Source: Shimia aestuarii (lineage in GTDB: Bacteria; Pseudomonadota; Alphaproteobacteria; Rhodobacterales; Rhodobacteraceae). Taken from it: a stretch of 64,000 bases of DNA. Below the pieces are notes generated by a model. That model was not told the DNA's origin. It did no database searches and saw nothing but the letters and a program-made list of their open reading frames with translations. Positions 1 to 22,161 of this stretch are shown in pieces. Numbering within the stretch: the stretch's first letter is position 1; each line of letters begins with the position of its first letter. A program made the translations under genes and the position numbers. The DNA is taken from positions 1 through 64,000 of the forward strand of contig NZ_JAKVRD010000005.1 of assembly GCF_022814865.1 (NCBI RefSeq), written 5' to 3'.

Positions 1-113
1 CGCGGAAACAAATCCGAAATCGGCATGAACGCCGACCCGATAATCCCAAACGCATGCTCAATTCCATGCATCTGCAACGTCTTCACAAAAGCTTCTTCGG
101 TCGTCATCTTCAT
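1..113 (-). CDS. xsc: Sulfoacetaldehyde acetyltransferase, N-terminal fragment (cut by window edge)
   Basis: Only the first 37 codons are in the window, read leftward from an ATG at 113. The start MKMTTEEAFVK and the segment HAFGIIGSAFMPISD are, from memory of the family, characteristic of Xsc. Xsc is a thiamine-diphosphate enzyme that converts sulfoacetaldehyde plus phosphate to acetyl phosphate and sulfite, the common C-S cleavage step of taurine, isethionate and sulfoacetate catabolism. An AAGGA Shine-Dalgarno lies about 10 nt upstream. The gene follows the SDR at 172-933 by 58 bp on the same strand, so it is probably the third gene of that operon. The catalytic and ThDP-binding regions are outside the window. 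Another IlvB-family enzyme cannot be fully excluded from this much sequence. Confidence 0.85.
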   Translation of the reverse strand, partial: MKMTTEEAFVKTLQMHGIEHAFGIIGSAFMPISDLFP

Positions 114-171
114 CTCAGAGGTGTCCTTTATCACTAGATATCGATTGTTTCTGGGCCGCCATTGCAGCGCA

Positions 172-933
172 TCAGAGCGTCATACCGCCATCCACCACCA
201 ACACATGGCCGGTCACCATGCTGGCACCCGCGCAGAGATAGAGCGCGGCTTCGGCGATATCGTCCGGTGTCGAGCGGCGTTTCAGCACGGATTGATCCCG
301 CGCCCATTGCTTGCGTTCTTCGGGCCAATCTTCCGTCCATGGCGTGCTTGTCTGCCCGGGAGCAACTGCGTTGACGCGCACGTCGGGCGCCAACCCGCGA
401 GCAAGGCCGCGGGTCAGGCTCACCAAGCCAGATTTGCTGGCGGCATAGGCAATCGAGCTGCCTTGCTCCCCGATCCCGGCGATGGAGGTGATGTTTACGA
501 CGGCCCCGCGACGCTCTTTCAAGGCGCCAGCGGCGGCATGTGCACACCGAAACGCACCGATCAGGTTGGTATTGAGCAGAAGCTGCCAGAACTCCTCGGT
601 CATCTTATCCAGCTCCGAGGGCGGGATCTTGTCGGCGGTGCCTGCTGTGCCAGCGTTGTTGATGAGGAAGTCCAGCCCCCCCATGTGTGCGATCGCGGCC
701 TCGACCATGGCCTCGGCATTTCCCGGGACGGATACGTTGCCCGGTGCCGAAATCACATCAAGCCCCTGCGAAGTCAATTCGGCGACCTTAGCCGGGCCCG
801 CCGGATCGGACTCCAGATGGTTGATCGCCACGCGGGCGCCCATCTCGGCCAGCATGGTCACGGTCGCAAGTCCGATGCCCGACGCGCCGCCCGTCACCAG
901 CGCACATTTTCCCTTGAGGTCTGCCTTGATCAC
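172..933 (-). CDS. Short-chain dehydrogenase/reductase (classical SDR)
   Basis: 253-aa classical SDR, an NAD(P)-dependent alcohol or ketone oxidoreductase of the cytoplasm. Visible hallmarks are the dinucleotide motif TGGASGIG (residues 14-21), NNAG (92-95) and the catalytic triad Ser150, Tyr163, Lys167. I chose the GTG at 933 because AAGGAGG sits just upstream and the codon overlaps the stop of the 3-hydroxyacyl-CoA dehydrogenase as GTGA. It is therefore the second gene of a 3HCDH-SDR-xsc operon. The neighbourhood suggests it oxidises a hydroxyl group on an intermediate upstream of sulfoacetaldehyde or of an acyl-CoA. The substrate cannot be read from sequence, since the FabG-like fold is shared by many SDRs. 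Confidence 0.85.
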   Translation of the reverse strand: MIKADLKGKCALVTGGASGIGLATVTMLAEMGARVAINHLESDPAGPAKVAELTSQGLDVISAPGNVSVPGNAEAMVEAAIAHMGGLDFLINNAGTAGTADKIPPSELDKMTEEFWQLLLNTNLIGAFRCAHAAAGALKERRGAVVNITSIAGIGEQGSSIAYAASKSGLVSLTRGLARGLAPDVRVNAVAPGQTSTPWTEDWPEERKQWARDQSVLKRRSTPDDIAEAALYLCAGASMVTGHVLVVDGGMTL

Positions 934-1880
934 CTGTCTTCCTCCTTCAAATCCGCAAATAGCGCCTTCAACCGCAAGAGCTTTAGGTCGCGTGCATGAA
1001 ACAACGTCTCAACCGGCGCATCGCCGTAGTCGAAGAACCCGGCACCTGCGCGGACCCCGGACCGCCCAGCCGCGATCAGGCGATCAAGCACCGGGGTTTC
1101 GCCTGTGTTCTCGGGCGGTTGATAGCTGCGACCGGCAATGCCATTGCGCACCATCTCAAGCCCGGTGAAATCCATCTTTCGCATGTGCCCTAAGACCGCC
1201 AACCGATGCACAAGCCCGTGCTGGATCGAGAGGTCAATCGTCTCAGGCGTGGCCCAGCCGTCCTCGATCATCCGCAGACATTCGAGGTTCAACGCCGCCT
1301 GAAGACGATTTGCGACATAGCCGGGAACCAGCGTATCGAACACGACGGGCACTTTGCCGAACCCTTCGTAGAGGGCGCGCAGCTCGGTGATCACTTGGTG
1401 ATCGGTATCAGGGCCGGGTGCCAGGTCCACAAGATCGACGATATAGGGAGGCGTATACCAATGCGCGACGGCCGCCCTTGATTGCCGGGCATTGGGGATG
1501 AGCGGAAAGACATCGAGATACGAGGTATTCGACGCAAGGATCGCCGCCGCAGGCGCATGGGCATCGACCTGCGCAAAAACCGCGCGCTTGATCTCTGGGT
1601 CTTCTATCACGGCCTCAACCACGAGGTCCGCCGCCTCGACGGCCGCTGCCAATGTGTCGGCATAGGCGATCCGTTCCACGGCGGCTTTTGCCGATACGGC
1701 GCTCTCGGTCCCGGCTTCTTGCAAGGTGGCAAGGGCGGTCTGGATTAGGCTAGGCGCACGCGCCAAGATCTCGGGAGCGTGGTCATAAAGCGTGACATGG
1801 CATCCGCCCAATGCATGCACCAAGGCCAAGGCGTGCCCCATGGTGCCCGCTCCAAGGACTGCAACGCGTTCGATCGCCAC
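930..1880 (-). CDS. 3-hydroxyacyl-CoA dehydrogenase family protein
   Basis: 316-aa single-function member of the 3-hydroxyacyl-CoA dehydrogenase superfamily. It has an N-terminal Rossmann domain with GAGTMG at residues 10-15, a helical C-terminal domain, and the catalytic His in VAHWYTPPYI, where canonical beta-oxidation enzymes have a GLHFFNP-like stretch. The divergent active-site segment and short length resemble L-gulonate, carnitine and pyridine-carboxylate dehydrogenases as much as true HAD enzymes, so the substrate need not be a CoA thioester. GTG start at 1880 with GGAGGAG upstream. It is first in the operon with the SDR and xsc. The promoter region 1881-2087 carries palindromic sites shared with other genes of the cluster. 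Confidence 0.8.
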   Translation of the reverse strand: MAIERVAVLGAGTMGHALALVHALGGCHVTLYDHAPEILARAPSLIQTALATLQEAGTESAVSAKAAVERIAYADTLAAAVEAADLVVEAVIEDPEIKRAVFAQVDAHAPAAAILASNTSYLDVFPLIPNARQSRAAVAHWYTPPYIVDLVDLAPGPDTDHQVITELRALYEGFGKVPVVFDTLVPGYVANRLQAALNLECLRMIEDGWATPETIDLSIQHGLVHRLAVLGHMRKMDFTGLEMVRNGIAGRSYQPPENTGETPVLDRLIAAGRSGVRAGAGFFDYGDAPVETLFHARDLKLLRLKALFADLKEEDR

Positions 1881-1964
1881 TGCCTGGTCTCCTCCGCTTG
1901 AATCCGGGGCTCTCCTCAGACCGCCCTAGCTCTGCTTCCAAAGCTCGCGGTCCACCCAAGACTA

Positions 1965-1987
1965 TTTTTGAAACTTAATTTCAAAAA
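1965..1987. promoter_or_regulatory. Perfect palindrome, candidate IclR operator (site A)
   Basis: Two perfect 9-bp arms, TTTTTGAAA and TTTCAAAAA, are separated by 5 bp. The core TGAAAC-TTA-ATTTCA (1969-1983) recurs at 2022-2036 and, with mismatches, at 6437-6451 and 21937-21951. The site lies between the divergent 3HCDH-SDR-xsc operon and the ThDP gene at 2088. A smaller dyad (GCTTGA and TCAAGC arms, 2000-2015) lies between sites A and B. Assignment to the IclR protein at 7710-8513 is inference. Confidence 0.6.
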
Positions 1988-2087: not shown

Positions 2088-3785
2088 ATGAATACCACAC
2101 CATGCGAGTCCTCTGACGGCGCACAGTACATCGCCGACTCACTTAAGCAGCTTGGCGTAAGCCACGTCTTCTTCATGGACGCGATCCTGCGCCCCACCTT
2201 GGTGCGTATGGAAGAGCACGGGATCACACGCATCCTCGCCCACTCCGAAAAATCGGCCGCCTACATGGCCGACGGCTACGCCCGTGTCAGCAATCGCGTC
2301 GGCGTCTGCATGGCGCAATCGGTCGGGGCGGCCAACTTGGCGGCGGGACTACAGGACGCCTATCTCCACCGTGCACCGCTGGTCGCGATGACGGGCCGCA
2401 AAGAACCGATGCTGCGCCACCGGAACGCCTATCAAGAGGTGCCGCATACGCCGCTGTTTTCCTCGACAACCAAAGACTCGATGGACGTGGCCGAAGCGCG
2501 TGAACTGCCGCACCTTCTGGCCCAAGCTTTCCGCGAGGCGACGGATGGCTCGCCCCGTCCGGTGCACCTCGATCTCAACGGGCTTGGCGGCGAAATCATT
2601 GAGAAGGGAGAGGTTCCGAACCCGACGCTCCCCGATGCTGCACTTGGTCGTCTACCAGAACATCGCCCCCTTGCTTCTCCGGCGATGATCAAGGCCGCCG
2701 CCGAGCGTCTTGCCAAGGCGAAGCGCCCTGTGCTTGTCGTTGGGGCGGGCGCGATCCAGGTCGACGCCCATGACGAGATCACAGAGATGGTCGAGAAGCT
2801 GAACATTCCGATCGCGACCTCGTTGGGCGGACGCACCATCGTGCCAACCACTCATCCCTTGCATATCGGGACCGTCGGCACCTACTCTGCACCGCCGGGC
2901 AACCGTCTGGTATACGAGGCCGATCTGGTGATCTATGTCGGCTGCCACGCTGGCGACCAGCCGACCAACAACTACAAGGTGCCTGCACCCGGCACGCCGA
3001 TCATCCAGATTGATCTCGACGGACAGGAGATCGGGCGCAACTACCCGGATACAACTGCGGTCTGGGGGTGCCCACGTCAGGCCATCGCCGATCTTACCGC
3101 GGCCAGCGAACAGGCCGCCGGGTGGTCCGATTGGGCCAAACATGCCGCTGCAGTCGTTGCAGATTGGCGCGCAGAGCTTGCCGCCCTCGCCACTGCCGAT
3201 GCCGCCCCGATCACTGTTGAACGCCTTTGCCACGAGATTTCGCAGGCATTGCCGGAAGATGGGATCTTGGTCGCCGACACGGGCTATTCTGGCATCTGGA
3301 CCGCCACGATGCTCGAACTGCCGCTCAAAGGGCAGAGCTATCTGCGCGCGGCGGGATCGCTCGGCTGGGCCTTCCCGGCAGCCTTGGGTGCGCAATGCGG
3401 CGCCCCGGATCGCCCCGTGGTCTGTTTTTCTGGCGACGGTGCCTTCTACTACCACCTGTCCGAGCTCGAGACCCAACGACGCTGGAACCTGCCTGTGGTG
3501 ACCGTGATCAACAACAACTCGGGTTTCGGGCAGGGCACGCCGAAGGTGGCCTCGTTCTATGAAGGGCGCGAAGGCGGAAGCCCCGAAGAGATCAACCGCT
3601 TCGGCCCCACCGACTTCGCAGCCGTCGCGCGCGATTTCGGGGTCGAGGGCATCCGCATCGAAGATCCAGCCGATCTCGCACCGGCGCTTGCCCGTGCCAT
3701 TGCCGCGCGCAAACCAGTGCTTCTCGATGTTGTCACTGACATTCACCCGCGTGCGCCTGAAGCTTGGGAGCCTCCCGCGGCCTAA
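2088..3785 (+). CDS. Thiamine-diphosphate-dependent enzyme, IlvB/acetolactate-synthase-like
   Basis: 565 aa with the three-domain order of ThDP decarboxylases and synthases: N-terminal Pyr domain with the cofactor-activating Glu54 in AHSEKSAAYMADGYAR, a central domain, and a C-terminal PP domain with the ThDP motif GDG (449-451) followed by NNN (475-477). The family splits C-C bonds next to a carbonyl (2-oxoacid decarboxylases, acetolactate synthase, 2-hydroxyacyl-CoA lyase, Xsc). It is not a second Xsc, since its N-terminus differs completely. It stands alone on the plus strand, divergent from the xsc operon, with operator sites A and B in its promoter and an intrinsic terminator after it. 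Reaction unknown. A small regulatory ilvH partner is absent, arguing against a biosynthetic acetolactate synthase. Confidence 0.8.
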   Translation: MNTTPCESSDGAQYIADSLKQLGVSHVFFMDAILRPTLVRMEEHGITRILAHSEKSAAYMADGYARVSNRVGVCMAQSVGAANLAAGLQDAYLHRAPLVAMTGRKEPMLRHRNAYQEVPHTPLFSSTTKDSMDVAEARELPHLLAQAFREATDGSPRPVHLDLNGLGGEIIEKGEVPNPTLPDAALGRLPEHRPLASPAMIKAAAERLAKAKRPVLVVGAGAIQVDAHDEITEMVEKLNIPIATSLGGRTIVPTTHPLHIGTVGTYSAPPGNRLVYEADLVIYVGCHAGDQPTNNYKVPAPGTPIIQIDLDGQEIGRNYPDTTAVWGCPRQAIADLTAASEQAAGWSDWAKHAAAVVADWRAELAALATADAAPITVERLCHEISQALPEDGILVADTGYSGIWTATMLELPLKGQSYLRAAGSLGWAFPAALGAQCGAPDRPVVCFSGDGAFYYHLSELETQRRWNLPVVTVINNNSGFGQGTPKVASFYEGREGGSPEEINRFGPTDFAAVARDFGVEGIRIEDPADLAPALARAIAARKPVLLDVVTDIHPRAPEAWEPPAA

Positions 3786-3883: not shown

Positions 3884-4654
3884 CTAGATCACCATCGCCT
3901 GACCGCCATTGATATCAAGCGAGGCGCCATTGACGAAACCAGCCTCCTCGGAGGCGAAATAGGCGACCGCTGCGGCGATATCCTCGACGGTGCCATGCCG
4001 GCGGACAGGGATCGAGTTCAGAACCTTCTGCCGCTCCGCTTCGGTTTGCCGTTCCGCCAAGAGCCGCTCCACCCGCGCCGTCAGAACCGCCCCCGGGCAA
4101 AGCGTGTTACAGGTGATCCCCAGCGGGCCGAACTCCTGTGCGATCTGAAGCGTAAAGGCCTGCATTGCCCCTTTCGAGGCCGCATAGTTCGCACCTGCAA
4201 ACAGGCTCCCGAACCGCCCGGCCTTTGATCCCATGTTGATCACCCGGCCATAGCCCGCCTTGACCATATACGGCAGGACGGCGCGGGTCGTGCGCACACA
4301 GGCCGTGACATTCACGTCCATCACCAGATCCCAATCCTCTTCGCTCTGCTCGAGAAAGCGGAAAGGCGTATGCAGGGATCCACCGATGTTGTTGACCAGA
4401 ACGTCGATCGGCCCGGCCTCACCCATCTCTGCCACAGCGGCCTCGATGTCTTGCGCGGACGTCATGTCGAGGCAGACCGCACGCAGATCAAGATCGGCCG
4501 CCGTCGCTTGCGCCTCAGCCGCTGCCAAGGCCTTCGCGTCCCGGTCCCACACGGTCACCGCCGCGCCTTCCTCGGCCAGGCGCAGGGCCATGCCCAGCCC
4601 CAGCCCGCTTCCTGCGGCGGTGATAAGCGCCCTGCGTCCCTCAAAGCGGCGCAT
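3884..4654 (-). CDS. Short-chain dehydrogenase/reductase
   Basis: 256-aa SDR with a slightly atypical nucleotide motif, TAAGSGLGLG (12-21), NNIGG at 88-92, and Ser143, Tyr157 and Lys161 as the catalytic residues. It probably oxidises or reduces a small alcohol or carbonyl with NAD(P). Its ATG lies 14 bp inside the upstream ThDP gene (4641-6332), so the two are translationally coupled and likely act on successive intermediates. It is only distantly similar to the SDR at 172-933, so this is not a recent duplication. Substrate unknown. Confidence 0.85.
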   Translation of the reverse strand: MRRFEGRRALITAAGSGLGLGMALRLAEEGAAVTVWDRDAKALAAAEAQATAADLDLRAVCLDMTSAQDIEAAVAEMGEAGPIDVLVNNIGGSLHTPFRFLEQSEEDWDLVMDVNVTACVRTTRAVLPYMVKAGYGRVINMGSKAGRFGSLFAGANYAASKGAMQAFTLQIAQEFGPLGITCNTLCPGAVLTARVERLLAERQTEAERQKVLNSIPVRRHGTVEDIAAAVAYFASEEAGFVNGASLDINGGQAMVI

Positions 4655-6332
4655 TGTCTACCGCCTCATGGTGGCTCGCTTCCGGGTCGACCTTGACATC
4701 GACAACCACAGGACCGCCCATCCGGTGCGCCTCTTCAATGGCGTCACGAAGTTCGTCACGGTGATAGACGCTGATACCCTTCGCGCCCATGCCCTCGGCG
4801 ATCTTGGCGAAATCGGCATCGTTGAAATCAACCGCAATCTGCTTGTCGCCGAGATTGTCCCGCACCATCCCCAGGCCCGCGTTGTTCGAGACGACGAACA
4901 CCACGTCGAGGTTCTGCTGCACGGCGGTTGGCAACACCTGCACGGTCATCATAAAGCCGCCGTCGCCCGCAAGGCAGGTGACGCGCTTCTGTGGGCGCAC
5001 GATCTTGGCCGCCGCCGCCGCGGGTCCGCCCCAGCCCATGACACCGGTCCCGCCCGGTACAAGCAACTGTCCGGCATGGGGCATACGCAGGCCAAAGGTC
5101 GCCCAGATACGCTGTGCGCCGGCGTCCAGCGCAAGGATATCATCCGGCCCAAGGAACTCCTGCAATCCGCGCACCACGTCGGTGTGGTGCACCGTGCCCT
5201 GTGCTGCTGGCAGGTCCGGCATATCGAAATAGCCGTTGCGGGTTTTGATATCCAAGCCCGCTTCGATCCGCGCCTTGGCCCGTTCTTCCGACAGGCCAAT
5301 CTCAGAGAGCATCGCGAGCACATCTGCCACGTCCCCTGTGATCGCCTGATCGACAGGATAGACCCAGCCCGCATTGCGCGGGTCGATATCGACCTGCACC
5401 AAGGTCTGATCGCCGGGCCGGATCATTCCGGGATCGCGGAACCGGGTGTAGTCCGGTCCCATCGAGGCCCCCAACATCACAACAAGATCCGCCTGCGCCA
5501 CCATCCGGTTGGCCGTGCGGTGGCCCCAGGTGCCCATCATCCCGGCGCAGACCGGCGAGGTCTCGGGGATGACGCCCTTGGCGTTGTAGCTCGTGACGAC
5601 CATGATACCGGCCTTCTCGGCCAAGGCTTGAAGCGCCCCGCCTGCCTCGGCGGTCACGATGCCGTTCCCGGCCACGATCACGGGCCGCTCGGCCTTGTCC
5701 AAAAGCGTGGCCAACTGCGCCACCGCCGCCGGATCTGGCCGCGAGGGCGTATAGGAGAGATAGCCTGCACTCGGATAGATCACCGGCTTGGCATCCTCAG
5801 GAAACTCCTGTCGGATGATCGGTGTCTTCATGACAACCGCTGCCGGACCCATCCGCGGCAACGACGCATGCTTGATCGCCATCTGCGTGCCAAAGACCGC
5901 TTCTTCCGGGCTTGTCGCATAGGTCGCGTATTTGGTGATCGGCTTGAGCGACGCCAGCGCGTTGGCGCCGCCATAGTCGCCGGTCATCGTCTGGTAGCAC
6001 CCCATCTGCCCATAGCCGTCATAGTCCGAGGTTTCGGTCAGAACCACCATCGGCGACCCGGCAAAATGCGCCTCGAGAATACCGAGACCGCCCATCGTGG
6101 TAATCCAAGGCCCCTGCCCCATGAGAACCGATGGCTTCCCTTCGATCCGACCAGCGGCCTGCGCCATAATCGAAGCGATCCATTCATTGCGGCATAGCAC
6201 AACATCAAAGTCGTCCTTTGCATCATAGAAGGCCGGCAAGGACCAGGTCACCCCAAGCCCAGGCAGGGTAAATGCCCGCTCTACGCCGCTTTCTATCAAC
6301 GTGCGCACCACCATTTCATTCGTCTTTGGCAT
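4641..6332 (-). CDS. Thiamine-diphosphate-dependent enzyme, second IlvB-like protein
   Basis: 563 aa from the ATG at 6332, which has GAGAGGA 8 nt upstream. The frame is open for 14 more codons, but they look like leader sequence. Pyr domain with Glu50 in CRNEWIASIMAQAAGR, central domain, and PP domain with GDG (456-458) and NN (483-484). The pattern MGQGPWITTMGG near residue 80 differs clearly from both Xsc and the protein at 2088-3785. It is the third ThDP enzyme of this cluster. First gene of a two-gene operon with the SDR at 3884-4654. Likely a decarboxylase or lyase of a 2-oxo or 2-hydroxy acid or its CoA ester. The precise reaction is not deducible. Confidence 0.8.
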   Translation of the reverse strand: MPKTNEMVVRTLIESGVERAFTLPGLGVTWSLPAFYDAKDDFDVVLCRNEWIASIMAQAAGRIEGKPSVLMGQGPWITTMGGLGILEAHFAGSPMVVLTETSDYDGYGQMGCYQTMTGDYGGANALASLKPITKYATYATSPEEAVFGTQMAIKHASLPRMGPAAVVMKTPIIRQEFPEDAKPVIYPSAGYLSYTPSRPDPAAVAQLATLLDKAERPVIVAGNGIVTAEAGGALQALAEKAGIMVVTSYNAKGVIPETSPVCAGMMGTWGHRTANRMVAQADLVVMLGASMGPDYTRFRDPGMIRPGDQTLVQVDIDPRNAGWVYPVDQAITGDVADVLAMLSEIGLSEERAKARIEAGLDIKTRNGYFDMPDLPAAQGTVHHTDVVRGLQEFLGPDDILALDAGAQRIWATFGLRMPHAGQLLVPGGTGVMGWGGPAAAAAKIVRPQKRVTCLAGDGGFMMTVQVLPTAVQQNLDVVFVVSNNAGLGMVRDNLGDKQIAVDFNDADFAKIAEGMGAKGISVYHRDELRDAIEEAHRMGGPVVVDVKVDPEASHHEAVDNAPL

Positions 6333-6436
6333 CTGTCCGGTCCTCTCCCGTTGCCGTCGGCCTGCCATATTCATCGTGCCGACGCTTCTGTTCGACGGCC
6401 AAGCTAACGGTTTCGAAATTGGCTTGCAATTATTTT

Positions 6437-6451
6437 TGAAATTGTGTTTTA
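6437..6451. promoter_or_regulatory. Candidate IclR operator (site C, degenerate)
   Basis: TGAAAT-TGT-GTTTTA, preceded by a run of four Ts as in site A. It lies in the 273-bp divergent space between the ThDP-SDR operon (start 6332) and the epimerase gene (start 6606). The match is weaker than at A and B. Confidence 0.4.
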
Positions 6452-6605
6452 AATTTATTTATCAGCACGGCGATGCAAGCGACCCACCACGGCCAAGGGA
6501 ATAGAAACCTTGGATAAATCCGCGATCAGAGGTTCGCAAAGTGTAACCCGCGCCGCCAAATCGCGACCCGATCGAGGTCTGCAACACGTCAAGAAGGGAC
6601 AATCA

Positions 6606-7535
6606 ATGACAGCGAAGGAACGGGTTTTCATCACCGGCGCCACGGGGTTCCTCGGCTCATGGATCATTGCTCGGATGGTCGAACACGGGGTCGAGGTCGT
6701 CGCCACCGATGTCAGCGACAACTACGCGCGTCTGACCGCCCTGCGCCCTGATCTGAGCCCTGACCAGAACCCGGCACTCATCGATTTCCGACACTGCGAT
6801 GTCACCGATGCGGCCCAAATCGAAAGCCTGATCGCCGAAACACGGCCCACCGGCATCATCCATTTGGCCGCCCTGCAGATTCCCCAGTGTCGAGAAATGC
6901 CGGGGCTGGCGGTCTCGGTGAATATTGGGGGCCACATCAACATGTTCGAAGCCGCGCGCAAGGCCGGGGTCGAAAGGGTGATCTACACCAGTTCCATCGC
7001 CGCCAAGCCGCGCGGCCCCGCCAATGCGCCGTCCAACCTCTACGGTGTGTTCAAAAAGACAGACGAAGAAATCGCGCGCATCTATTGGGATGACTATCAG
7101 ATGTCGAGCCTCGGATTGCGCCCATATGTCGTCTACGGCGTCGGGCGTGACGATGGCGAAACCTCGGCCATTACCCGCGCCATCGAGGCCGCTGCCCTTG
7201 GTCGCCCGTATGAAATTCCCTTCTCCACAAGAAGCTGCTTTCAATTCGCAGGGGACGTGGCCGATGTCTTCGTCAAGGCCGCCTCGGCCTCGTGGAACGG
7301 CGCGCTGCTCTCGGACATCTCGGAAACCACCCACAGCACCGACGAGGTGCTCGCTGCGATCCACGCCGAGGTGCCGGGCGCCAGGGTCACCTGCGCCGAC
7401 ACCGTGCGGATATCGCCCAGTGACGGTTTCGAGACCTCTGCCCTGCGCCAAGTGATTGGCGACATCGAAGAGCGCCCCTTGCAGGAAGGCGTGCGCGAAA
7501 CGATTGAACTTTATCGCCAAATCGCGGCGCGCTGA
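6606..7535 (+). CDS. NAD-dependent epimerase/dehydratase family protein
   Basis: 309-aa extended SDR. GATGFLG at residues 11-17 is the NAD-binding loop. YTSSIAAKP followed by NLYGVFKK gives the Ser and the YxxxK catalytic residues. Family members epimerise, dehydrate or oxidise nucleotide sugars, lactones or sugar acids. The ATG at 6606 is preferred over the longer open frame because GAAGGGAC lies just upstream. Its place inside a catabolic cluster, divergent from a ThDP enzyme and followed by an IclR gene, suggests it acts on a small hydroxylated acid or uronate-like compound. This is inference. Confidence 0.75.
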   Translation: MTAKERVFITGATGFLGSWIIARMVEHGVEVVATDVSDNYARLTALRPDLSPDQNPALIDFRHCDVTDAAQIESLIAETRPTGIIHLAALQIPQCREMPGLAVSVNIGGHINMFEAARKAGVERVIYTSSIAAKPRGPANAPSNLYGVFKKTDEEIARIYWDDYQMSSLGLRPYVVYGVGRDDGETSAITRAIEAAALGRPYEIPFSTRSCFQFAGDVADVFVKAASASWNGALLSDISETTHSTDEVLAAIHAEVPGARVTCADTVRISPSDGFETSALRQVIGDIEERPLQEGVRETIELYRQIAAR

Positions 7536-13954: not shown

Positions 13955-13978
13955 TTTTAAAATCTGTGTCCGCATTGC
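13955..13978. promoter_or_regulatory. Candidate operator for the second IclR regulator (site 1)
   Basis: TTTTAAAAT, 8 bp, then GCATTGC. The GCATTGC core is flanked by C and G, making an odd palindrome around the central T. The same composite motif, with identical spacing, occurs at 14923-14946. It lies in the 118-bp gap between the second iclR gene and the acyl-CoA synthetase gene. Confidence 0.6.
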
Positions 13979-14922: not shown

Positions 14923-14946
14923 TTTTAAAATTATTGTTTGCATTGC
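14923..14946. promoter_or_regulatory. Candidate operator for the second IclR regulator (site 2)
   Basis: TTTTAAAAT, 8 bp, GCATTGC, here flanked by T and A. The flanking pair differs from site 1 (C and G) but remains complementary, so the 9-bp palindrome is conserved by a paired change. It lies in the 185-bp divergent space between iclR (start 14818) and the DUF35 gene (start 15004). Confidence 0.6.
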
Positions 14947-15003: not shown

Positions 15004-15432
15004 ATGAGTCACACCGGACAGGATACCGACCCGGCGGTCGCCCCGGCCTCGGGGCCGGACCACGAATTCCAAACCCATGTGGCGGATGGCAAGCTCTGGC
15101 TGCAACATTGCAAGGACTGCGACACAGCGATCTTCATGCCGCGCGTCCTCTGCCCATCCTGCGCCTCCCTAGCCCTTGAGTGGCGTCCGGCCTCCGGCCT
15201 TGGCACCATCTATTCGCAAGCAACACTGCGCCCTCGGGCCAAGCCCGGCGCGCCCGAACGGCCTCCGCACTCCGTCGTCCTTGTCGATCTTGATGAGGGG
15301 CCGCGGATGATGAGTCACCTTCCCGGCGTCTCACCCGAAGACATCCACATCGGGATGCGCGTGCGGGCGCGCATTGATGGCGACACCGGCAGCCACCTCG
15401 TTGCCTTTTTCCCCGAGGAGAGCCAGCCATGA
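15004..15432 (+). CDS. DUF35 OB-fold/zinc-ribbon protein, acyl-CoA-associated
   Basis: 142 aa, ATG at 15004 after GGGAGGA. N-terminal rubredoxin-like zinc ribbon with Cys pairs in HCKDCDTAIFMPRVLCPSC, followed by an OB-fold domain (DUF35). DUF35 proteins pair with thiolase-superfamily enzymes, as in archaeal HMG-CoA synthesis complexes and the Ltp2-ChsH2 retro-aldolase of steroid degradation, where they bind the CoA tail or channel substrate. The stop overlaps the start of the thiolase-fold gene (ATGA, 15429-15432), which strongly supports a stable complex with it. Confidence 0.88.
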   Translation: MSHTGQDTDPAVAPASGPDHEFQTHVADGKLWLQHCKDCDTAIFMPRVLCPSCASLALEWRPASGLGTIYSQATLRPRAKPGAPERPPHSVVLVDLDEGPRMMSHLPGVSPEDIHIGMRVRARIDGDTGSHLVAFFPEESQP

Positions 15433-16586
15433 CATCTCCTTCCCCCCTTCGCGGCAAATCCGCCATCGTCGGCGTCGGTACGGCAGGTCTCGGCGAGGCC
15501 CCCGGCTTCAACGCGATGGACATTCAGGCCCTCGCCGTGCGCGCTGCGCTCGATGATGCTGGCCTGTCCCTGACCGATGTTGATGGCCTCTTCTGTGCCA
15601 ACATGAGCCATACCTTCCCGGCGATCTCGACCGTCGAGTATCTCGGCCTCAATCCCCGCTGGATCGACGGCACCAATACCGGCGGCTCGAGCTTTGTCGC
15701 CCACGCGCTCTCGGCAACAATGGCCCTCGAAGCGGGCCTTTGCGACGTGGCACTTATCTGCTACGGCGCGACAATGCGGTCCGGTGCGGGCCGCATGGTC
15801 CCCCCGGCAGAACAGCCCGCATATGAAGTGCCGCATGGCCCGCGCTACCCGATGACAGCCTACGCGCTGGCCGCAGCGCGCCACATGGCCCAATTCGGCA
15901 CCACCCGCGAACAACTCGCCGCCGTCGCCGTTGCCGCGCGTGATTGGGCCCGCCTCAACCCCGACGCCTTCGAAAGAGACCCGCTGAGCGTCGAGGAGGT
16001 GCTCGCCTCGCGCATGGTGATGGAACCGCTGAGCCTGCGGGATTGCTGCCTGCTGACCGATGGGGCCGGTGCCATCGTCATGACCCGCGCCGACCGCGCC
16101 CGCGACCTCGCACACAAGCCCGCCTATTTCCTCGGCGGCGGCGTGGCGTCTTACAACCGCGCGATCTCTGAAATGCCGGACCTGACCAGCACCGCCGCCA
16201 AAGACTCCGGCAAACGCGCATTCACCATGGCAGGGCTCTCACAGGGCGATATCGACATCCTGCAACTCTACGATGCCTTTACCATCAATGTGATCCTCTT
16301 CCTCGAAGATCTGGGGTTCTGCCCCAAGGGGGAAGGCGGTGCCTTTGTCCAAGACGGCCGCATCGCGCCCGGTGGCGCATTGCCGGTGAATACCAATGGC
16401 GGCGGCCTCTCGTTCTGCCATCCGGGCATGTATGGCGTCTTTACCCTGATCGAAGCCACTCGCCAGCTGCGCGGCGCGGCCGAGGCCCGGCAGGTCGACA
16501 AGGCCGACACTGTGCTCTGCCACGGCAACGGCATCACGCTGTCGCACCAGGCCACCGCCATCTTCGGAAGTGACAACGCACTCTAA
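15429..16586 (+). CDS. Thiolase-fold protein, SCP2/lipid-transfer type without the nucleophilic Cys
   Basis: 385 aa, thiolase superfamily (SCP-x thiolase/lipid-transfer branch). The usual nucleophilic Cys motif is replaced by DGTNTGGSSFVAHA (81-92). The second-half motif NTNGGGLSFCHPGMYG keeps the His of the canonical GHP motif, and the C-terminal CxG acid/base Cys is not in its usual form. Loss of the Cys is typical of retro-aldolases such as Ltp2, not of thiolytic enzymes. With the coupled DUF35 gene, I infer cleavage of a hydroxyacyl-CoA into an aldehyde or ketone plus a shorter acyl-CoA. Ordinary thiolysis is the less likely alternative. The FadJ-like gene follows after 18 bp. Confidence 0.75.
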   Translation: MTSPSPLRGKSAIVGVGTAGLGEAPGFNAMDIQALAVRAALDDAGLSLTDVDGLFCANMSHTFPAISTVEYLGLNPRWIDGTNTGGSSFVAHALSATMALEAGLCDVALICYGATMRSGAGRMVPPAEQPAYEVPHGPRYPMTAYALAAARHMAQFGTTREQLAAVAVAARDWARLNPDAFERDPLSVEEVLASRMVMEPLSLRDCCLLTDGAGAIVMTRADRARDLAHKPAYFLGGGVASYNRAISEMPDLTSTAAKDSGKRAFTMAGLSQGDIDILQLYDAFTINVILFLEDLGFCPKGEGGAFVQDGRIAPGGALPVNTNGGGLSFCHPGMYGVFTLIEATRQLRGAAEARQVDKADTVLCHGNGITLSHQATAIFGSDNAL

Positions 16587-16604: not shown

Positions 16605-18659
16605 ATGACAGACCTGATTTCAACACACACACACGGCGCGCTTGGCATCATCCGCATGACACGCGGACCGGTCAATGCGCTTGGGCACGCACTGCGCGTG
16701 GCCATCTCGCAGGCCCATCGCACCTTCGAAAGCGACCCCGCGATTGCCGCCATCGTCCTGACGGGCCAAGGTCGCTTTTTCTCGGCTGGCGCCGACATTA
16801 CCGAATTCGATTCCGGACGCCGCGCACCGTTCCTGACCGACCTCATTGCCCAACTCGAAGCGAGCACAAAACCGGTCATCGCGCTGGTCAACGGCATCGC
16901 CTATGGCGGCGGCTTTGAACTGGCACTGGGCTGTCACGGTCTCGCCGCCCTGTCCGATGCCAAGGTCGCCTTCCCGGAGATTACCCTTGGCAATATCCCC
17001 GGCGCGGGCGGCACTCAGAAACTGCCCCGGTTGATCGGCGGCCCCGCCGCGCTCGACATCATCCTGAGTGGCAAACCCATTTCCGCCAAACGCGCCCATG
17101 ATCTTGGGATTGCGCAAAGCATCGACGGCACCGAAGCCGAAGCACTGACGCGGATCGAGGCGGATTTGGCCGACGGCCCGCCACAACGCCTGCCCCGCGA
17201 TCTCACAGTCGAGGGAAGCCCCGAGGACCTGTCCGAAGTCGCTGCGCCCTATCTGCGCCGCGCCCGTGGCGCCCCGGCCCCTGCCAAGGCGCTCGAAGGC
17301 GTGCAAATGGCCTATGACACCCCGCTCGACGCGGGGCTGGCCTGGGAAAGAGAGACCTTCACCGCGCTCAATACCTCGCCAGAAGCCAAGGCCCTGCGCC
17401 ACGTCTTCTTTGCCGAACGCGAGGCCCGCAAAATCGAAGATGTCCCGCCCCAAACGCCCAAGCGCGCGCTGGCAAGCGCCGGGGTGATCGGTGCGGGCAC
17501 GATGGGCGCCGGCATCGCCAAATGCCTTGCCGATGCCGGACTTTCGGTAACGGTCATCGAACAAGAACAAGACCGCCTCGATCAAGGCCTTGCCCGCATT
17601 CGCGCGATCTACGACGAAGCCCAGAGCAAGGGCCGCCTCTCCAAGGCCGACGCCGAAGCACGCCTCGCGCGCATCTCCGGCAGCACCTCGATGGACGCGC
17701 TTTGCGAGGCCGACATTGTGGTCGAAGCCGTGTTCGAAGCGATGGATATCAAACGCAGCGTTTTTGCCGCGCTCGACAAGATCTGCAAACCGGGCGCGAT
17801 CCTCGCCACCAACACCTCGACGCTCGACGTCAACGAGATCGCCGCAGCCACATCCCGCCCCGAGGACGTGATCGGCCTACATTTCTTTAGCCCTGCACAT
17901 ATCATGAAGCTGCTCGAGGTGGTGCGCGCCGACAAGACCGCACCCGATGTGATTGCCACGGCCATGGCCTTGGGGCCGCGTCTCGGCAAGGTGCCGGTTC
18001 TGGTTGGGGTTTGTGACGGCTTTGCCGGCAATCGCATGTTCATCAATTTCAACCGCGAGGCACAGATCCTGATTGAGGAAGGCGCCCTGCCTTGGCAGAT
18101 CGACGCCGTGCTGTCGGATTGGGGCCTCGCCATGGGGCCACTGGCCGTGATGGACCTTGCAGGCCTCGACGTGGGCTATCGCATCCGCCAGGCCCGCGGC
18201 CCGCAAAGCCCCTACCCGTTCACCACCGCCGACCGTCTGGCCGAAGCCGGGCATCTCGGACAGAAGACGGGGCGCGGCTGGTATCTCTATCCGGACGGGG
18301 CCCGGCGCGGCCAGCCCGACCCAGAGGTCGAGACGCTTATCAAGGCGGTGTCCCAAGAGAAAGGCATCACCCGGCGCGAAATTTCCGATGAAGAGATCCT
18401 GCACCGCTGCCTCTGGCAACTGGTCAACACGGGCTACCAGATCATCGAAGAGGGCATTGCCCAGCGGCCCAGCGATCTCGATGTGATATTCGTCAACGGC
18501 TATGGCTTCCCCAAGACGCGCGGCGGGCCGATGTTCTTTGCCGAGCAAACGGGTCTGGCCCGTGTTGCCGCTGACGTGCGTCGCTTCCACGCTGAGATCG
18601 GAGCGCACTGGACGCCTTCGGCGCTGCTCTTGGAACAGGCAGAGACAGCCGACGCCTAA
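16605..18659 (+). CDS. Bifunctional enoyl-CoA hydratase/3-hydroxyacyl-CoA dehydrogenase (FadJ/FadB-like)
   Basis: 684 aa, near the usual 700 for FadJ-type proteins. The N-terminal crotonase domain (1-190) has both catalytic glutamates, Glu105 in GGGFELALG and Glu125 in FPEITLGNIPG. The NAD-binding domain has GAGTMG at 296-301, and the C-terminal HAD domain carries LHFFSPA. It hydrates a trans-2-enoyl-CoA and oxidises the 3-hydroxyacyl-CoA. Third gene of the DUF35-thiolase operon and followed by a strong terminator. If the thiolase partner is a retro-aldolase, the hydratase half supplies its substrate and the dehydrogenase half may serve another round. Confidence 0.9.
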   Translation: MTDLISTHTHGALGIIRMTRGPVNALGHALRVAISQAHRTFESDPAIAAIVLTGQGRFFSAGADITEFDSGRRAPFLTDLIAQLEASTKPVIALVNGIAYGGGFELALGCHGLAALSDAKVAFPEITLGNIPGAGGTQKLPRLIGGPAALDIILSGKPISAKRAHDLGIAQSIDGTEAEALTRIEADLADGPPQRLPRDLTVEGSPEDLSEVAAPYLRRARGAPAPAKALEGVQMAYDTPLDAGLAWERETFTALNTSPEAKALRHVFFAEREARKIEDVPPQTPKRALASAGVIGAGTMGAGIAKCLADAGLSVTVIEQEQDRLDQGLARIRAIYDEAQSKGRLSKADAEARLARISGSTSMDALCEADIVVEAVFEAMDIKRSVFAALDKICKPGAILATNTSTLDVNEIAAATSRPEDVIGLHFFSPAHIMKLLEVVRADKTAPDVIATAMALGPRLGKVPVLVGVCDGFAGNRMFINFNREAQILIEEGALPWQIDAVLSDWGLAMGPLAVMDLAGLDVGYRIRQARGPQSPYPFTTADRLAEAGHLGQKTGRGWYLYPDGARRGQPDPEVETLIKAVSQEKGITRREISDEEILHRCLWQLVNTGYQIIEEGIAQRPSDLDVIFVNGYGFPKTRGGPMFFAEQTGLARVAADVRRFHAEIGAHWTPSALLLEQAETADA

Positions 18660-18722: not shown

Positions 18723-18739
18723 AGTGGTCGTTTCCCGGC

Positions 18740-20026
18740 TCAGGCGTAGCCAAAGAGCTTTGGGAAATACATCGTGAAGAACGGCACGTATGTGATCAAC
18801 AACAGCACCACGATCTCGGCGGCGATAAACGGCAGGATCGCCCAACTGAGCCGCGCAAGACTGACGTTCGACACCCCGCAGGCCGCGAACAACACCAACC
18901 CGAATGGCGGCGACGCAAGACCGATGGTCAGGTTCATACAGGTGATAAGACCAAAGTGGATCGGATCGACCCCATATTGATACGCGATCGGCGCCAAGAG
19001 CGGCCCCAGAACGATGATCGCAAACCCCATGTCGAGGAACATCCCAATGATCAGGAACAGCACATTGACCAGCATCAGGAAGACGAACTTGTTCTCGGTG
19101 ATGGACACGAACACAAGCGTGACGTGCTCGACGAGGTTGTAGTAGCTCACCAGCCAGCTAAAGCTCTTGGCACAGGCGAGAAGGAACATGATCATCGCCG
19201 TCGCTTTCACCGTATGCGCCAAGATCGGCACGATATCCGAAAGCTTCAGGCTACGATAAAAGATGAAGCCGATGGCAAGCCCATACATCACCGCGACCGC
19301 CGAGGCCTGGGTCGGGCTGAAGAAACCACCAAGGATCCCGCCCATGATCAGCGCCGGCAGCATCAGCGCCGGAATACCATGCAGCACTGCGATCAGCAGG
19401 CGGATGACGCCGACGAACGGTGCCCGCTCACCAAAGCCTTTGCGCACAGCGATGATATAGGCCGTCACCATCAGCGCCAACGCGACAAGAATCCCCGGCA
19501 GCATGCCCCCAAGGAAAAGGCCCGCGATCGAGACGTTCATCACCGACGCATAAAGGAGCATCGGAATACTCGGCGGAATGATCGGCCCGATCACCGAACT
19601 CGAGGCGGTCACCGCGGCGCTATACTCTTCGCTATAGCCGTTCTCCTTCATGGACGGGATCATGATCCCCCCCACCGCAACCGTATCAGACACGGCCGAG
19701 CCGGTGATCCCGGCAAAGAACATGCTGGCCACGATATTGGTGTGCGCAAGCCCGCCCCGGATCCAGCCCACAAGCGACGACGCCAAGGTCATGAGCTTGT
19801 TGGTGATCCCCGCGCGGTTCATGATCTCCCCAGCCATGATGAAGAAGGGGATCGCAAGCAGAAGCAGGTTCTCCGTGCTGGTGAACATGCGCTGCGGGAT
19901 CTGTGTGAACAGGCGCGGGTCGCCGATGTCGATATAGACAAAGATCGTCATCAACACGAGGCAGAAGGCAATCGGCACCCCCAAGAGGAGCATCGGGACA
20001 AAGCTTCCAAAAATGATTCCGATCAT
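18740..20026 (-). CDS. dctM: TRAP transporter large permease subunit
   Basis: 428-aa hydrophobic protein with the DctM layout of about 11-12 membrane segments. It has an N-terminal hydrophobic stretch, the conserved NRAGITNKLM and GITGSAVSDTVAVGGIMIPSM regions, and PIIPPSIPMLLYA. It forms the sodium-driven translocation channel of the tripartite ATP-independent periplasmic system. It starts inside the dctQ stop (ATGA, 20023-20026). With DctP and DctQ it imports a small organic anion, most likely the growth substrate of the adjacent cluster. Confidence 0.93.
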   Translation of the reverse strand: MIGIIFGSFVPMLLLGVPIAFCLVLMTIFVYIDIGDPRLFTQIPQRMFTSTENLLLLAIPFFIMAGEIMNRAGITNKLMTLASSLVGWIRGGLAHTNIVASMFFAGITGSAVSDTVAVGGIMIPSMKENGYSEEYSAAVTASSSVIGPIIPPSIPMLLYASVMNVSIAGLFLGGMLPGILVALALMVTAYIIAVRKGFGERAPFVGVIRLLIAVLHGIPALMLPALIMGGILGGFFSPTQASAVAVMYGLAIGFIFYRSLKLSDIVPILAHTVKATAMIMFLLACAKSFSWLVSYYNLVEHVTLVFVSITENKFVFLMLVNVLFLIIGMFLDMGFAIIVLGPLLAPIAYQYGVDPIHFGLITCMNLTIGLASPPFGLVLFAACGVSNVSLARLSWAILPFIAAEIVVLLLITYVPFFTMYFPKLFGYA

Positions 20027-20556
20027 TGATCAACTCCGGCGGTAGGCATTTCATCTGAGGTGGATTCGGTGGGCTCACGCGGGTCGGGAAGCGTCGCACC
20101 GATACTGAACAGCCCCAACAGCACACCGCCGACAGGAACCGAAAGATAGTAGTAGAACAGGTTGATATCGAGATAGAGCGAGGTCTGATACTTGCCGACA
20201 AACAAGGCCATCTTGACCCCATAGTAGACCATGACCCAGACAATGATCAGCGCCAGGACAAGATACCCGATACGCATGAGCAACTGGAGCCTGGGGCCGA
20301 GCACGGAATAGACCATATCGACACCGATATGCCCCCCGTGCCGCGCGACAACGCCCGCGCCAACAAAGACCGCCCAGGCAAACAATAGGTTGTTGACCTC
20401 TTCGATCCAGACCAATGAATTCCCGACAACCTGATCGACGATGATGCCATTTGCCGTGTTGAGAAACAGCAAGGCGGTCAGCATCATCGCCAGCGCCATG
20501 GCAGCTTTTTCAAGCCAGTCGAGAAAGGTCTGATATCCGGAGAGAAGCTTGTTCAT
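20023..20556 (-). CDS. dctQ: TRAP transporter small permease subunit
   Basis: 177 aa with four predicted membrane helices (about 15-40, 50-70, 88-110, 130-155), the DctQ family pattern. ATG at 20556 with AAGGAG 8 nt upstream. It is the accessory membrane subunit that holds DctM and helps dock DctP. A 246-bp untranslated gap with a large inverted repeat separates it from dctP. This is unusual spacing within a TRAP operon and may lower permease expression relative to the binding protein. Confidence 0.9.
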   Translation of the reverse strand: MNKLLSGYQTFLDWLEKAAMALAMMLTALLFLNTANGIIVDQVVGNSLVWIEEVNNLLFAWAVFVGAGVVARHGGHIGVDMVYSVLGPRLQLLMRIGYLVLALIIVWVMVYYGVKMALFVGKYQTSLYLDINLFYYYLSVPVGGVLLGLFSIGATLPDPREPTESTSDEMPTAGVDQ

Positions 20557-20720
20557 TCGACATACTCCTTACCCGTCGTGACATGATGCCGGAGGCTCCC
20601 GGCGCCCCGAAGCTAGGTTTCGGAACAGGTCTGATCACGCGGGATTGTGTGCAGGTGCCCGGAGACCGGTCATCCCGGCCGATACGGCCGCGATATCCGA
20701 TCTGCGGGGGTATGAACGGG

Positions 20721-20777
20721 AGGTTGCCACCCGGGATGCGCGCCCGTCAACAAGCGCGTCCCCCCCGGCAGCAACCT
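20721..20777 (-). repeat. Inverted repeat in the dctP-dctQ gap
   Basis: Arms AGGTTGC (20721-20727) and GCAACCT (20771-20777) enclose further G/C-rich complementarity. There is no T-run on the minus strand, so it is not a simple terminator. It is more likely an intercistronic stem-loop that stabilises dctP mRNA or reduces read-through. Confidence 0.5.
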
Positions 20778-20802
20778 TACGTTCGGTCCCGGAGTGGTGG
20801 CC

Positions 20803-21837
20803 TTACTCCATTTCGGCGGCTTTCGCCGCAGCCATGACCTTCTCGACCCATGCTTCGCCGTCATCGCCGATCTTACGAACGATCGTATCGATATAGGGCT
20901 GCTGACCGAGAGAACGGAATTCCTCGATCTCTGCATCGGTCGGGTAGTAGAAGGTCGCGCCTTCGGCCTCCATGGCCGACTTCACAACCAGGCCACTCAG
21001 CATCGACTGCGCGTTGCCGACCCGGCTGCACACATCGCCTGCCTGTAGGATCAGCGTCTGGTTCTTCGGCGAAAGCGACTGGAAGAACTCTTCGTTGATC
21101 AGGATCGGGTGCAGGTTGTAGCTGTGCCGCGTGACGGTGACATGCGGGTTCACTTCATAGAGCTTCTTGGAATACATCGAGTAGAGCTCGGTGTCGTGCC
21201 CTTCAGCCATGCCCGACTGCAACGAGGTATAAAGCTCGCTCCAGGTAATCGTCACCGTGTTGGCGCCCCAGGCGCGGAACATGGCAAGCAGACCGGGGTT
21301 CTCCGGAACGCGCATCTTCATGCCGTCGAGATCGGCCACGCTGTGCACGGGCTTCTCGGCATAGATGTTGCGGAAGCCTGCGCCTTCCGGCCATGCCAGA
21401 ACCCGCAGACCGGTTTTCTTGAGAAAGCTGTCGGCAAGCTCGTCACCAAGCGGCCCTTCCATCACCTTCCACGCGGTCAGGCTATCGCGAAACACATACG
21501 GAATCTGCGTGACACTGATCTCGGGCGCGAACGGCACCATGATCGAGGTATAGGCCCCCACCATCTGGATCACACCGGTCTGGGCCGATTCGATCATCGT
21601 GCGGGCGTTGCCAAGGGCTCCGTCCGGGTGCACCTCAAGCTCGATCTCGCCTTCAGAGGCGACCTCGAGATAATTTTTCATCGCCGAAACGCATGCCGTC
21701 CGCCCCGAACCGGGCAGGCGCACATCACCTTCCGAGCTATGCCCCAGCTTGATGACAATGGGTTCAGCGACAGCTGCGCCGGTCATCGACCCAACGGCCA
21801 CCGACATCCCCAAAGCGAATGCTGCAAGTTTGTTCAT
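20803..21837 (-). CDS. dctP: TRAP transporter periplasmic substrate-binding protein
   Basis: 344 aa. A type I signal peptide ends near AVAEP (about residue 24). The DctP fold carries GFRNIYA (Arg156) and LDGMKMRVPEN (Arg176); the second Arg sits where most DctP proteins bind the ligand carboxylate. An organic acid ligand is therefore likely, although sulfonate-binding TRAP proteins use the same fold. Lead gene of dctP-dctQ-dctM. A copy of the TGAAAC-N3-ATTTCA-like motif is 100 bp upstream, linking it to the xsc/ThDP promoters. The Cys pair (residues 49 and about 272) could form a disulfide. Confidence 0.93.
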   Translation of the reverse strand: MNKLAAFALGMSVAVGSMTGAAVAEPIVIKLGHSSEGDVRLPGSGRTACVSAMKNYLEVASEGEIELEVHPDGALGNARTMIESAQTGVIQMVGAYTSIMVPFAPEISVTQIPYVFRDSLTAWKVMEGPLGDELADSFLKKTGLRVLAWPEGAGFRNIYAEKPVHSVADLDGMKMRVPENPGLLAMFRAWGANTVTITWSELYTSLQSGMAEGHDTELYSMYSKKLYEVNPHVTVTRHSYNLHPILINEEFFQSLSPKNQTLILQAGDVCSRVGNAQSMLSGLVVKSAMEAEGATFYYPTDAEIEEFRSLGQQPYIDTIVRKIGDDGEAWVEKVMAAAKAAEME

Positions 21838-22161
21838 TATGTTTCCTCCCTGTTCCGATTTTACTCGTCCAATTGAGCCAAGGCGTCCTCGCGCCGGATC
21901 TGGCGTTTCCCTGCAGCCCGGAACTTCAGCTACTTTTGGAACACTATTTCAAAAAAAATTTCTTGTCGACATTTTTTCTGCCCACCCCCGATTGAGGCCA
22001 CCCGAACACCCCCTCGCGCCATCGCAACAAACCCTGAAAAGCAAGCCTCCTCAAAAGCTTCGCCCTACGCCACACAGCCTATGCAGCCAACGATGCCAAC
22101 ATGATGACGGCCGGCCCAAGCCATCTCGCAAGCGCCTAAGACAAATGTCTTTTGATGAAAC
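21838..22161. other. Non-coding stretch upstream of dctP
   Basis: No gene is seen. It contains the dctP ribosome site (GGGAGGAAAC at its left end) and operator site D (21937-21951) followed by an A-run. The rest shows no clear signal. Confidence 0.6.
21937..21951. promoter_or_regulatory. Candidate IclR operator (site D) before dctP
   Basis: TGGAAC-ACT-ATTTCA with T-rich left and A-rich right flanks, as at site A. It matches the site A/B core except for one arm position and the spacer. It lies 100 bp before the dctP start. Confidence 0.5.

Follow-up and report, generated by a model that had tools for sequence, protein, structure and literature searches.

Much of the organic sulfur in seawater and sediments is present as organosulfonates, and to our knowledge the list of compounds known to be degraded through sulfoacetaldehyde acetyltransferase (Xsc) is short. 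L-carnitine catabolism proceeds through carnitine 3-dehydrogenase, a beta-keto acid cleavage enzyme (BKACE) and a thioesterase. Taurine catabolism (tpa-tauR-xsc) ends in Xsc, and the sulfolactate/dihydroxypropanesulfonate (DHPS) route, in the part of PMC11131964 considered here, employs HpsN, HpsO, HpsP, GabD-2, SlcC, SlcD, ComC and SuyAB. Here we describe a gene island at the left end of a 64-kb stretch of Shimia aestuarii DNA (the window), taken from the start of contig C5 (NZ_JAKVRD010000005.1) in an assembly of 3.97 Mb and 70 contigs. The locus forms a transferred island, co-regulated at least in part, whose most likely function is the degradation of a sulfonate through Xsc. With a probability of about one half, we read it as an IclR-controlled catabolic locus for a hydroxylated and carboxylated organosulfonate larger than C2, from which sulfoacetaldehyde would be released for Xsc. 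Its final reactions can be recognised, but the starting compound and the intermediate reactions fit no described pathway that we found; the part of the open PubMed Central literature covered by our search, which excluded subscription papers, gave no description of this gene set, and the locus is apparently an undescribed one.

Pfam and NCBIfam family searches found all the proteins that a preliminary description had named from the sequence (Xsc, two further thiamine diphosphate (ThDP) enzymes, two short-chain dehydrogenases (SDRs), a 3-hydroxyacyl-CoA dehydrogenase (3HCDH)-type protein, an epimerase, an acyl-CoA synthetase, acyl-CoA dehydrogenases, a DUF35/thiolase pair, FadJ, a thioesterase, DctPQM and two IclR regulators), with the expected domains, except that of xsc only the first 37 codons lie in the window (1..113, minus strand, at the contig end). 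These 113 bp lie 58 bp behind SDR1 (172..933, minus) in the same direction, and SDR1 overlaps the 3HCDH-fold dehydrogenase HCDH (930..1880, minus) by 4 bp, giving an operon HCDH-SDR1-xsc. ThDP1 (2088..3785, plus) resembles acetolactate synthase (ALS) and GCL. ThDP2 (4641..6332, minus, with its start probably at 6332), an ALS/POX-like enzyme that forms the core of the locus, overlaps the reading frame of its partner SDR2 (3884..4654, minus) by 14 bp. Both ThDP enzymes have complete N, M and C TPP domains, which in ThDP2 lie on a single chain of 563 aa. Beyond ThDP2 are EPIM (6600..7535, plus), an extended-SDR oxidoreductase of the epimerase/dehydratase family, and IclR1 (7710..8513, plus), a regulator kept with the ThDP2 core in relatives. 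The acyl-CoA module follows, comprising the 4HBT-type thioesterase TE (8525..9349, minus), the small-subunit-type and large-subunit-type acyl-CoA dehydrogenases ACAD2 (9454..10533, minus) and ACAD1 (10547..11704, minus), the NDP-forming acyl-CoA synthetase ACS (11701..13890, minus; CoA_binding_2, Succ_CoA_lig and ATP-grasp_5 domains; 4-bp overlap with ACAD1), the DUF35 protein (zf-ChsH2/OB-fold; 15004..15432, plus, start probably near 15004) with its partner, the thiolase-fold protein THIO (15429..16586, plus), and the crotonase-3HCDH fusion FADJ (16605..18659, plus). IclR2 (14009..14818, minus) is likely the regulator of this module. The tripartite TRAP importer, with large permease dctM (18740..20026, minus), small permease dctQ (20023..20556, minus) and solute-binding protein dctP (20803..21837, minus), completes the island, whose right edge was placed by site comparison at a tRNA-Arg (TCT) gene (22162..22238, minus) near uvrB (23139).

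A scan with ThDP2 kept 80 loci, 22 of them at 59-90% identity and one at 41%. Six of the 22, all in Rhodobacteraceae-type genomes, carry ThDP1, HCDH and SDR1 at 64-85% identity, and those with ThDP1 and HCDH are our six block relatives; one Desulfarculaceae locus has distant counterparts (ThDP1 49%, HCDH and SDR1 33%), and 15 lack these three genes at that level. SDR2 (at least 63% identity) is present at 19 of the 22 loci and EPIM at 17, SDR2-ThDP2 being the most constant pair. The block relatives keep 14-17 of the 18 non-xsc window genes as one block in different surroundings, which argues that the gene set is more than a group of chance neighbours. Common to all six are dctPQM, ACS-ACAD1-ACAD2, SDR1-HCDH, ThDP1, SDR2-ThDP2, EPIM and IclR1, arranged in five as dctPQM-(FADJ-THIO-DUF35-IclR2)-ACS-ACAD1-ACAD2-SDR1-HCDH-(LacI)-ThDP1-SDR2-ThDP2-EPIM-IclR1-(TE). 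FADJ-THIO-DUF35-IclR2 is found in four and missing in Antarcticimicrobium luteum and an Antarcticimicrobium MAG (metagenome-assembled genome); the LacI gene is missing in two and TE in four, with the proviso that genes of relatives were called by codon score or as longest open reading frames (ORFs) and may be missed. The Tropicimonas block has its halves exchanged relative to the other five, and the window block is a circular permutation of the Tropicimonas order (L110-L112), its halves joined the other way round.

Among close kin the island genes are rare. ThDP1 was found in 4 of 390 genomes of the order (own included) and in none of the eight same-genus genomes listed, ThDP2 in 1 of 385 genomes of the class, which is the own genome, and HCDH at 65% identity or more in 3 of 198 family genomes (own included; 23 at E 1e-40). 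The uvrB site carries no island gene in any of the nine same-genus genomes fetched, from 25 with uvrB (own included), and its neighbours differ beyond a 103-aa gene called in five of them. The tRNA-Arg/uvrB site appears to be an insertion hot spot, nine same-genus genomes having different genes there. GC content gives no sign of transfer (0.619 in the island, 0.627 in the rest of the window). Rare in kin, found in varied surroundings and inserted at a variable site, the block is a horizontally acquired genomic island.

Linkage of xsc to ThDP2 was observed in four lineages, namely the window, Desulfobacterota, Oricola and, loosely, Tropicimonas, where xsc lies 10 kb from IclR1; in the first three, xsc shares one operon or cluster with upstream enzymes. 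Three Desulfobacterota genomes (G210, G616 and G825) have the run ThDP1-SDR1-HCDH-dctPQM-GntR-ThDP2-ackA-xsc, in G210 with DctP, DctQ and DctM 54-72% identical to those of the window; in G825 antisense ORFs masked ThDP2, ackA and xsc, which were recovered by tblastn. A ThDP1-like gene is present in nine of 395 Desulfobacterota genomes, three of which carry the cluster; in the stretches examined of the other six (47-55% identity), some on short contigs, the cluster was not found. Oricola indica has a single run, xsc-IclR1-EPIM-tctABC-PhyH-ThDP2-SDR2, behind a molybdopterin-oxidoreductase set that we read as SoeABC, Pfam naming its first gene only. Both xsc and ackA accompany ThDP2 in two lineages, one of them (the window) by elimination. 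A rough binomial estimate, with xsc taken to occur once in 4 Mb and the zone set at 50 kb, gives 1.8e-4 for four linked lineages in 23, or 2.5e-3 for three in 22 without Tropicimonas. Xsc scored above the TIGR03457 cut-off in the genomes of all 17 loci of relatives, which represent 15 distinct genomes. Of the 22 genomes whose ThDP2 orthologue reaches 59% identity, 21 contain xsc (15/15 and 6/7, L031 being the exception), compared with 122 of 197 (62%) in the family (Fisher p 8e-4, kinship ignored and background only partly matched). The genome with the 41% homologue (L034) and four plasmid records also lack xsc. Overall, a link of Xsc to the locus is likely, not certain.

Some more distant loci show other gene combinations. 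On Martelella plasmid pMM593 (L099), ThDP2 (57%) is accompanied by IclR, TctABC, SDR, NAD(P)-dependent oxidoreductase, TRAP and sulfatase-like genes. Directly behind ThDP2-SDR2 in L031 are ABC genes read as NitT/TauT type, a third type of uptake, and ABC genes read likewise lie near the cluster in Hyphomicrobium (L026, L027). A Desulfobacterota stretch (L170, from G821) has partial likeness to the window locus, with ThDP1-like (53%) and IclR1-like (33%) genes, ORFs read as TctABC, an epimerase-type oxidoreductase and an aminotransferase, and no xsc. In haloarchaeal loci L100 and L101 a ThDP2-like gene (39-40%) adjoins an EPIM-type gene, with EthD, VOC and M24 genes, and Halorubrum sp. PV6 has in addition thiolase, zinc-ribbon, 3HCDH and enoyl-CoA hydratase genes near its ThDP2-like gene.

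The island promoters share the palindrome TTTYRAAA. By motif count, eight copies occur in the 64 kb, seven of them in five island promoters: two sites 13 bp apart in the HCDH/ThDP1 promoter (1966..1986), two 23 bp apart in that of ThDP2/EPIM (6411..6441), and one each at ACS-ACAD1-ACAD2 (13955..13962), IclR2/DUF35 (14923..14930) and dctP (21947..21954). Seven control palindromes of the same form had no match in these promoters, and among 3000 shuffles (by our own swap routine, meant to keep dinucleotides) none had sites in all five promoters and three had sites in four, figures that are overstated because the motif was picked from the promoters used in the test. Across 49 intergenic regions of the window genome and its six block relatives, 34 TTTYRAAA copies fall in 22 regions and each control occurs at most once; the spacing is 13 bp in 8 of 12 neighbouring pairs. 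The site is present at ThDP2/EPIM in 7/7 genomes, at dctP in 6/7, at the ThDP1 promoter in 4/7 and at IclR2/DUF35 in 3/5. Five of eight tct-type loci, none of which was used in choosing the motif, likewise have it ahead of the ThDP2 unit, and since IclR1 is the regulator common to these loci, IclR1 is likely the TTTYRAAA reader. Occurrence of the site in the promoters of both modules and of dctP suggests a shared regulator. Two genomes have a second inverted repeat, TTTCGCATAGCGAA, ahead of ACS or DUF35, for which IclR2 is a fitting reader; together with the distribution of TTTYRAAA, this suggests that the acyl-CoA module is partly co-regulated and partly under separate control. A third repeat, TGAAAGCGCTTTC, is found in the LacI/ThDP1 promoters of all four genomes with the LacI gene and of none of the three without it. 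TTTYRAAA repeats, often 13 bp apart, may serve as a promoter signature for finding further members.

Following xsc beyond position 1, as the preliminary description had proposed, led to a repeat rather than to a whole gene: no contig of the assembly holds a complete xsc by TIGR03457 search (cut-off 676.4 bits). Contigs C1 and C5 both end in one 127-bp sequence of the xsc 5' end, and C23 and C16 in another, also of 127 bp, near the 3' end of the gene, which indicates that two xsc copies were collapsed in the assembly. The two copies share 127 bp at both gene ends and differ in their last codons; we infer that they are alike from 14 bp before the start to some 20-30 bp before the stops, middle included, and this suggests recent gene conversion or duplication between the xsc copies of the taurine locus and of the island. 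On C1 are an aminotransferase-like gene and the gene of a MocR-type regulator, labelled PdxR by NCBIfam and read here as tauR from its position beside xsc. C16 runs from xsc into a YeiH-family gene (Pfam Cons_hypoth698), and C23 (L012) into ackA and then a 3-hydroxyisobutyrate-dehydrogenase-like gene. Eight same-genus tau loci were fetched for comparison, from 25 genomes with a match (own included). Among these, xsc was called in seven, followed by YeiH in three and by another gene in four, and ackA was called in none of the eight. The nearest relative, L121, has the order aminotransferase-TauR-xsc-YeiH followed by three ORFs (215, about 450 and 643 aa), which is the arrangement of C1 plus C16. 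C1 thus appears to join C16, and by elimination C5 would join C23, so that the window operon would read HCDH-SDR1-xsc-ackA.

Family scores set both ThDP enzymes apart from described groups. Against the Xsc model TIGR03457 ThDP1 and ThDP2 reach 228.7 and 160.2 bits (cut-off 676.4), which rules out ThDP2 as a second Xsc, and against the acetolactate synthase model TIGR00118 they reach 326.2 and 252.1 bits (cut-off 538.35). ThDP1 and ThDP2 both lie below every cut-off among their best 25 NCBIfam families (of 53 and of 55, respectively), and from these scores we reject ThDP2 as a member of any listed ALS, POX or decarboxylase family. Sulfopyruvate decarboxylase ComDE, which we take to consist of two short subunits, is likewise unlike the single-chain ThDP2. 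In a tree, which warns of long branches, ThDP1 and ThDP2 form clades of their own apart from Xsc, and the ThDP2 sequences of tct-type loci L017 and L030 nest among those of TRAP-type loci, so both front ends seem to share one back end. HCDH aligns best with 5-formyl-3-hydroxy-2-methylpyridine 4-carboxylate (FHMPC) 5-dehydrogenase and lambda-crystallin and has in common with them a PPY/PPH stretch, where the acyl-CoA enzyme shown has NPVPVMKLVEV; from this likeness to free-hydroxyacid enzymes, a free hydroxy acid is a likelier substrate than an acyl-CoA. Against 25 NCBIfam families, 3-hydroxyacyl-CoA and carnitine dehydrogenases included, HCDH exceeded no cut-off (carnitine models: 108 of 592 and 91 of 414 bits). 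EPIM had no PDB match at 1e-24, and the likeness of DctP to generic TRAP proteins, with an isethionate-binding protein far down the list, gave no substrate.

On this basis we propose that DctPQM would import the organosulfonate and that HCDH, SDR1, EPIM and SDR2 would oxidise its free hydroxyl groups. Carbon-carbon cleavage would fall to the two ThDP enzymes: ThDP1 would act upstream, and ThDP2 would form the final pair with SDR2 and yield sulfoacetaldehyde. The simplest use of this most constant pair, as a working guess, would be that SDR2 oxidises 3-sulfolactate, or a 2-hydroxy-3-sulfo acid like it, and that ThDP2 decarboxylates the resulting 2-oxo acid. Xsc would then convert sulfoacetaldehyde to sulfite and acetyl phosphate, from which AckA would form acetate and ATP. 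The acyl-CoA module (ACS, ACAD1/2, FADJ, THIO/DUF35 and TE) may degrade whatever carbon fragment remains, or the substrate in a second form. A more specific and tentative version of this scheme is that a hydroxy-sulfonic acid of C4 or more is shortened to sulfoacetaldehyde by two uncharacterised enzymes of the acetolactate synthase type working one after the other, with interchangeable front ends (TRAP with HCDH/SDR1/ThDP1, or TTT with a PhyH dioxygenase), one ThDP2-SDR2-Xsc back end and, in the alphaproteobacterial forms, one IclR operator, the system being shared between Alphaproteobacteria and Desulfobacterota.

Several observations weigh against our reading of the island. In none of the six block relatives is xsc part of the block or clustered with upstream enzymes, and five of the six have it beside tauR. 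The preliminary description had named a lack of co-occurrence of xsc and the acyl-CoA module as evidence that would tell against it; most relatives show just this, and the two parts come together only in the window genome and, at 10 kb, in Tropicimonas, which has three xsc copies and other genes between xsc and the block. SDR1 and HCDH of the Desulfobacterota clusters are just 33% identical to those of the window, their equivalence being unsure, and the Oricola stretch examined has no ThDP1, HCDH or SDR1 and no TTTYRAAA in its xsc promoter. The genome of L031, with a 59% orthologue, lacks xsc; the family background for xsc stands at 62% already, and the count of 21 in 22 takes no account of kinship; and haloarchaeal plasmids have ThDP2-EPIM pairs and no xsc on the plasmid. 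Also to be weighed are the choice of motif noted above, the occurrence of TTTYRAAA at the ACS promoter in just one of five genomes, the C5-C23 join, made by elimination and not by reads, and the family searches of the locus proteins, which named no sulfonate-specific enzyme besides Xsc.

The acyl-CoA module is best regarded as an accessory part. The preliminary description had placed it first, with activation as CoA ester, desaturation, hydration and carbon-carbon cleavage delivering a C2 sulfonate to Xsc. The evidence lends no support to this order, given the likeness of HCDH to free-hydroxyacid enzymes, the fact that the module is not in the xsc-bearing stretches of the Desulfobacterota and Oricola clusters, and its occurrence in a Rhodovibrionaceae genome (G206; L177/L178, contig C32) together with SDR1, LacI-type and BKACE genes in a 31-kb stretch that has no ThDP1, ThDP2 or HCDH; the idea of an undescribed Xsc-feeding locus is retained on account of xsc near ThDP2 in four lineages and the shared promoter site. 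BKACE presumably cleaves a 3-oxo acid in G206, a step that may be taken over in the window by ThDP1 together with HCDH. The G206 module also encloses two ORFs resembling another uptake system, and in G903 an ORF beginning like BKACE adjoins a ThDP1-like gene. THIO scores 614.8 bits for NF004811 (PRK06158 subfamily, DUF35-thiolase; cut-off 421) and is a predicted thiolase or aldolase, and the ACADs are nearest to PimC/PimD (368.2 and 182.6 bits; cut-offs of 623.85 and 652.7 not reached). A steroid or bile-acid side-chain module was rejected, no such partners being named in the block, as was a carnitine-type route with BKACE, because the window block has no BKACE though the related G206 cluster has one.

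These data bear on whether the island holds one pathway or two. Two independent pathways sharing one locus, a sulfonate route (HCDH, SDR1, ThDP1, SDR2, ThDP2, EPIM, xsc, ackA and dctPQM) and an unrelated acid module (ACS, ACADs, DUF35/THIO and FADJ) under IclR2, would account for the partial loss of the module in two of six relatives, its absence from the Desulfobacterota and Oricola stretches, its association with SDR1 and BKACE and no ThDP enzyme in G206, and its own repeat upstream of ACS or DUF35 in two genomes. But the ACS-ACAD part is contiguous with the rest in all seven Rhodobacteraceae-type genomes, the two promoters of the module in the window have TTTYRAAA, as do 3/5 IclR2/DUF35 promoters, and SDR1 accompanies both modules, and we hold this arrangement to be rather doubtful. 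The core (ThDP2, SDR2 and EPIM) might instead degrade a sugar acid or another non-sulfonate, with xsc as a chance neighbour duplicated from the taurine locus. The haloarchaeal loci, the polyhydroxy-acid enzymes in the EPIM and HCDH families, an annotated SMP-30 lactonase near a ThDP1-like gene in Achromobacter, an ORF read as such a lactonase near ThDP2 in Oricola and the position of xsc beside tauR in relatives all point that way. Against it stand the presence of xsc near ThDP2 in four lineages, in two with ackA (one by elimination), the binomial values given above and the 21 orthologue genomes with xsc, making this explanation improbable. We consider it equally improbable that non-orthologous enzymes perform a known route, from 3-sulfolactate or DHPS over sulfopyruvate to sulfoacetaldehyde. 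Such a route needs at minimum a pair like SDR2-ThDP2, and Oricola unites tct-type uptake, SDR, ThDP and Xsc, but the enzymes of that route in the part of PMC11131964 considered were not named among the families shown for the locus, and it leaves ThDP1, HCDH, SDR1 and the PhyH protein without explanation. Our reading of the island as a locus for a larger organosulfonate points to another natural sulfonate, which marine aerobes and sediment anaerobes may both use.

Compared with known systems, the island ends in Xsc as does the taurine locus (here on contigs C1 and C16), whose xsc copy has the same 127 bp at both ends and appears identical between them; in contrast to the taurine locus, the window block has no aminotransferase, and ackA, by elimination, takes the place of the YeiH-family gene after xsc. 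The L-carnitine route likewise has a 3HCDH-fold dehydrogenase, and the thioesterase matches the C-terminal part of the carnitine 3-dehydrogenase model; BKACE, however, is found in the related G206 cluster and not in the window block, and HCDH falls far below the carnitine cut-offs. Modules of the PimCD and BbsAB type share with ours paired ACADs and a DUF35/thiolase-fold pair, and ours differs in the scores of its ACADs, below the PimC/PimD cut-offs, in its NDP-forming CoA synthetase and in its linkage to ThDP enzymes. The sulfolactate/DHPS systems, in the part of PMC11131964 considered, likewise bring together, in a single cluster, dehydrogenases that supply sulfopyruvate, genes for uptake and a regulator, whereas the island, in which none of their enzymes was named, has two ALS-type ThDP enzymes instead.

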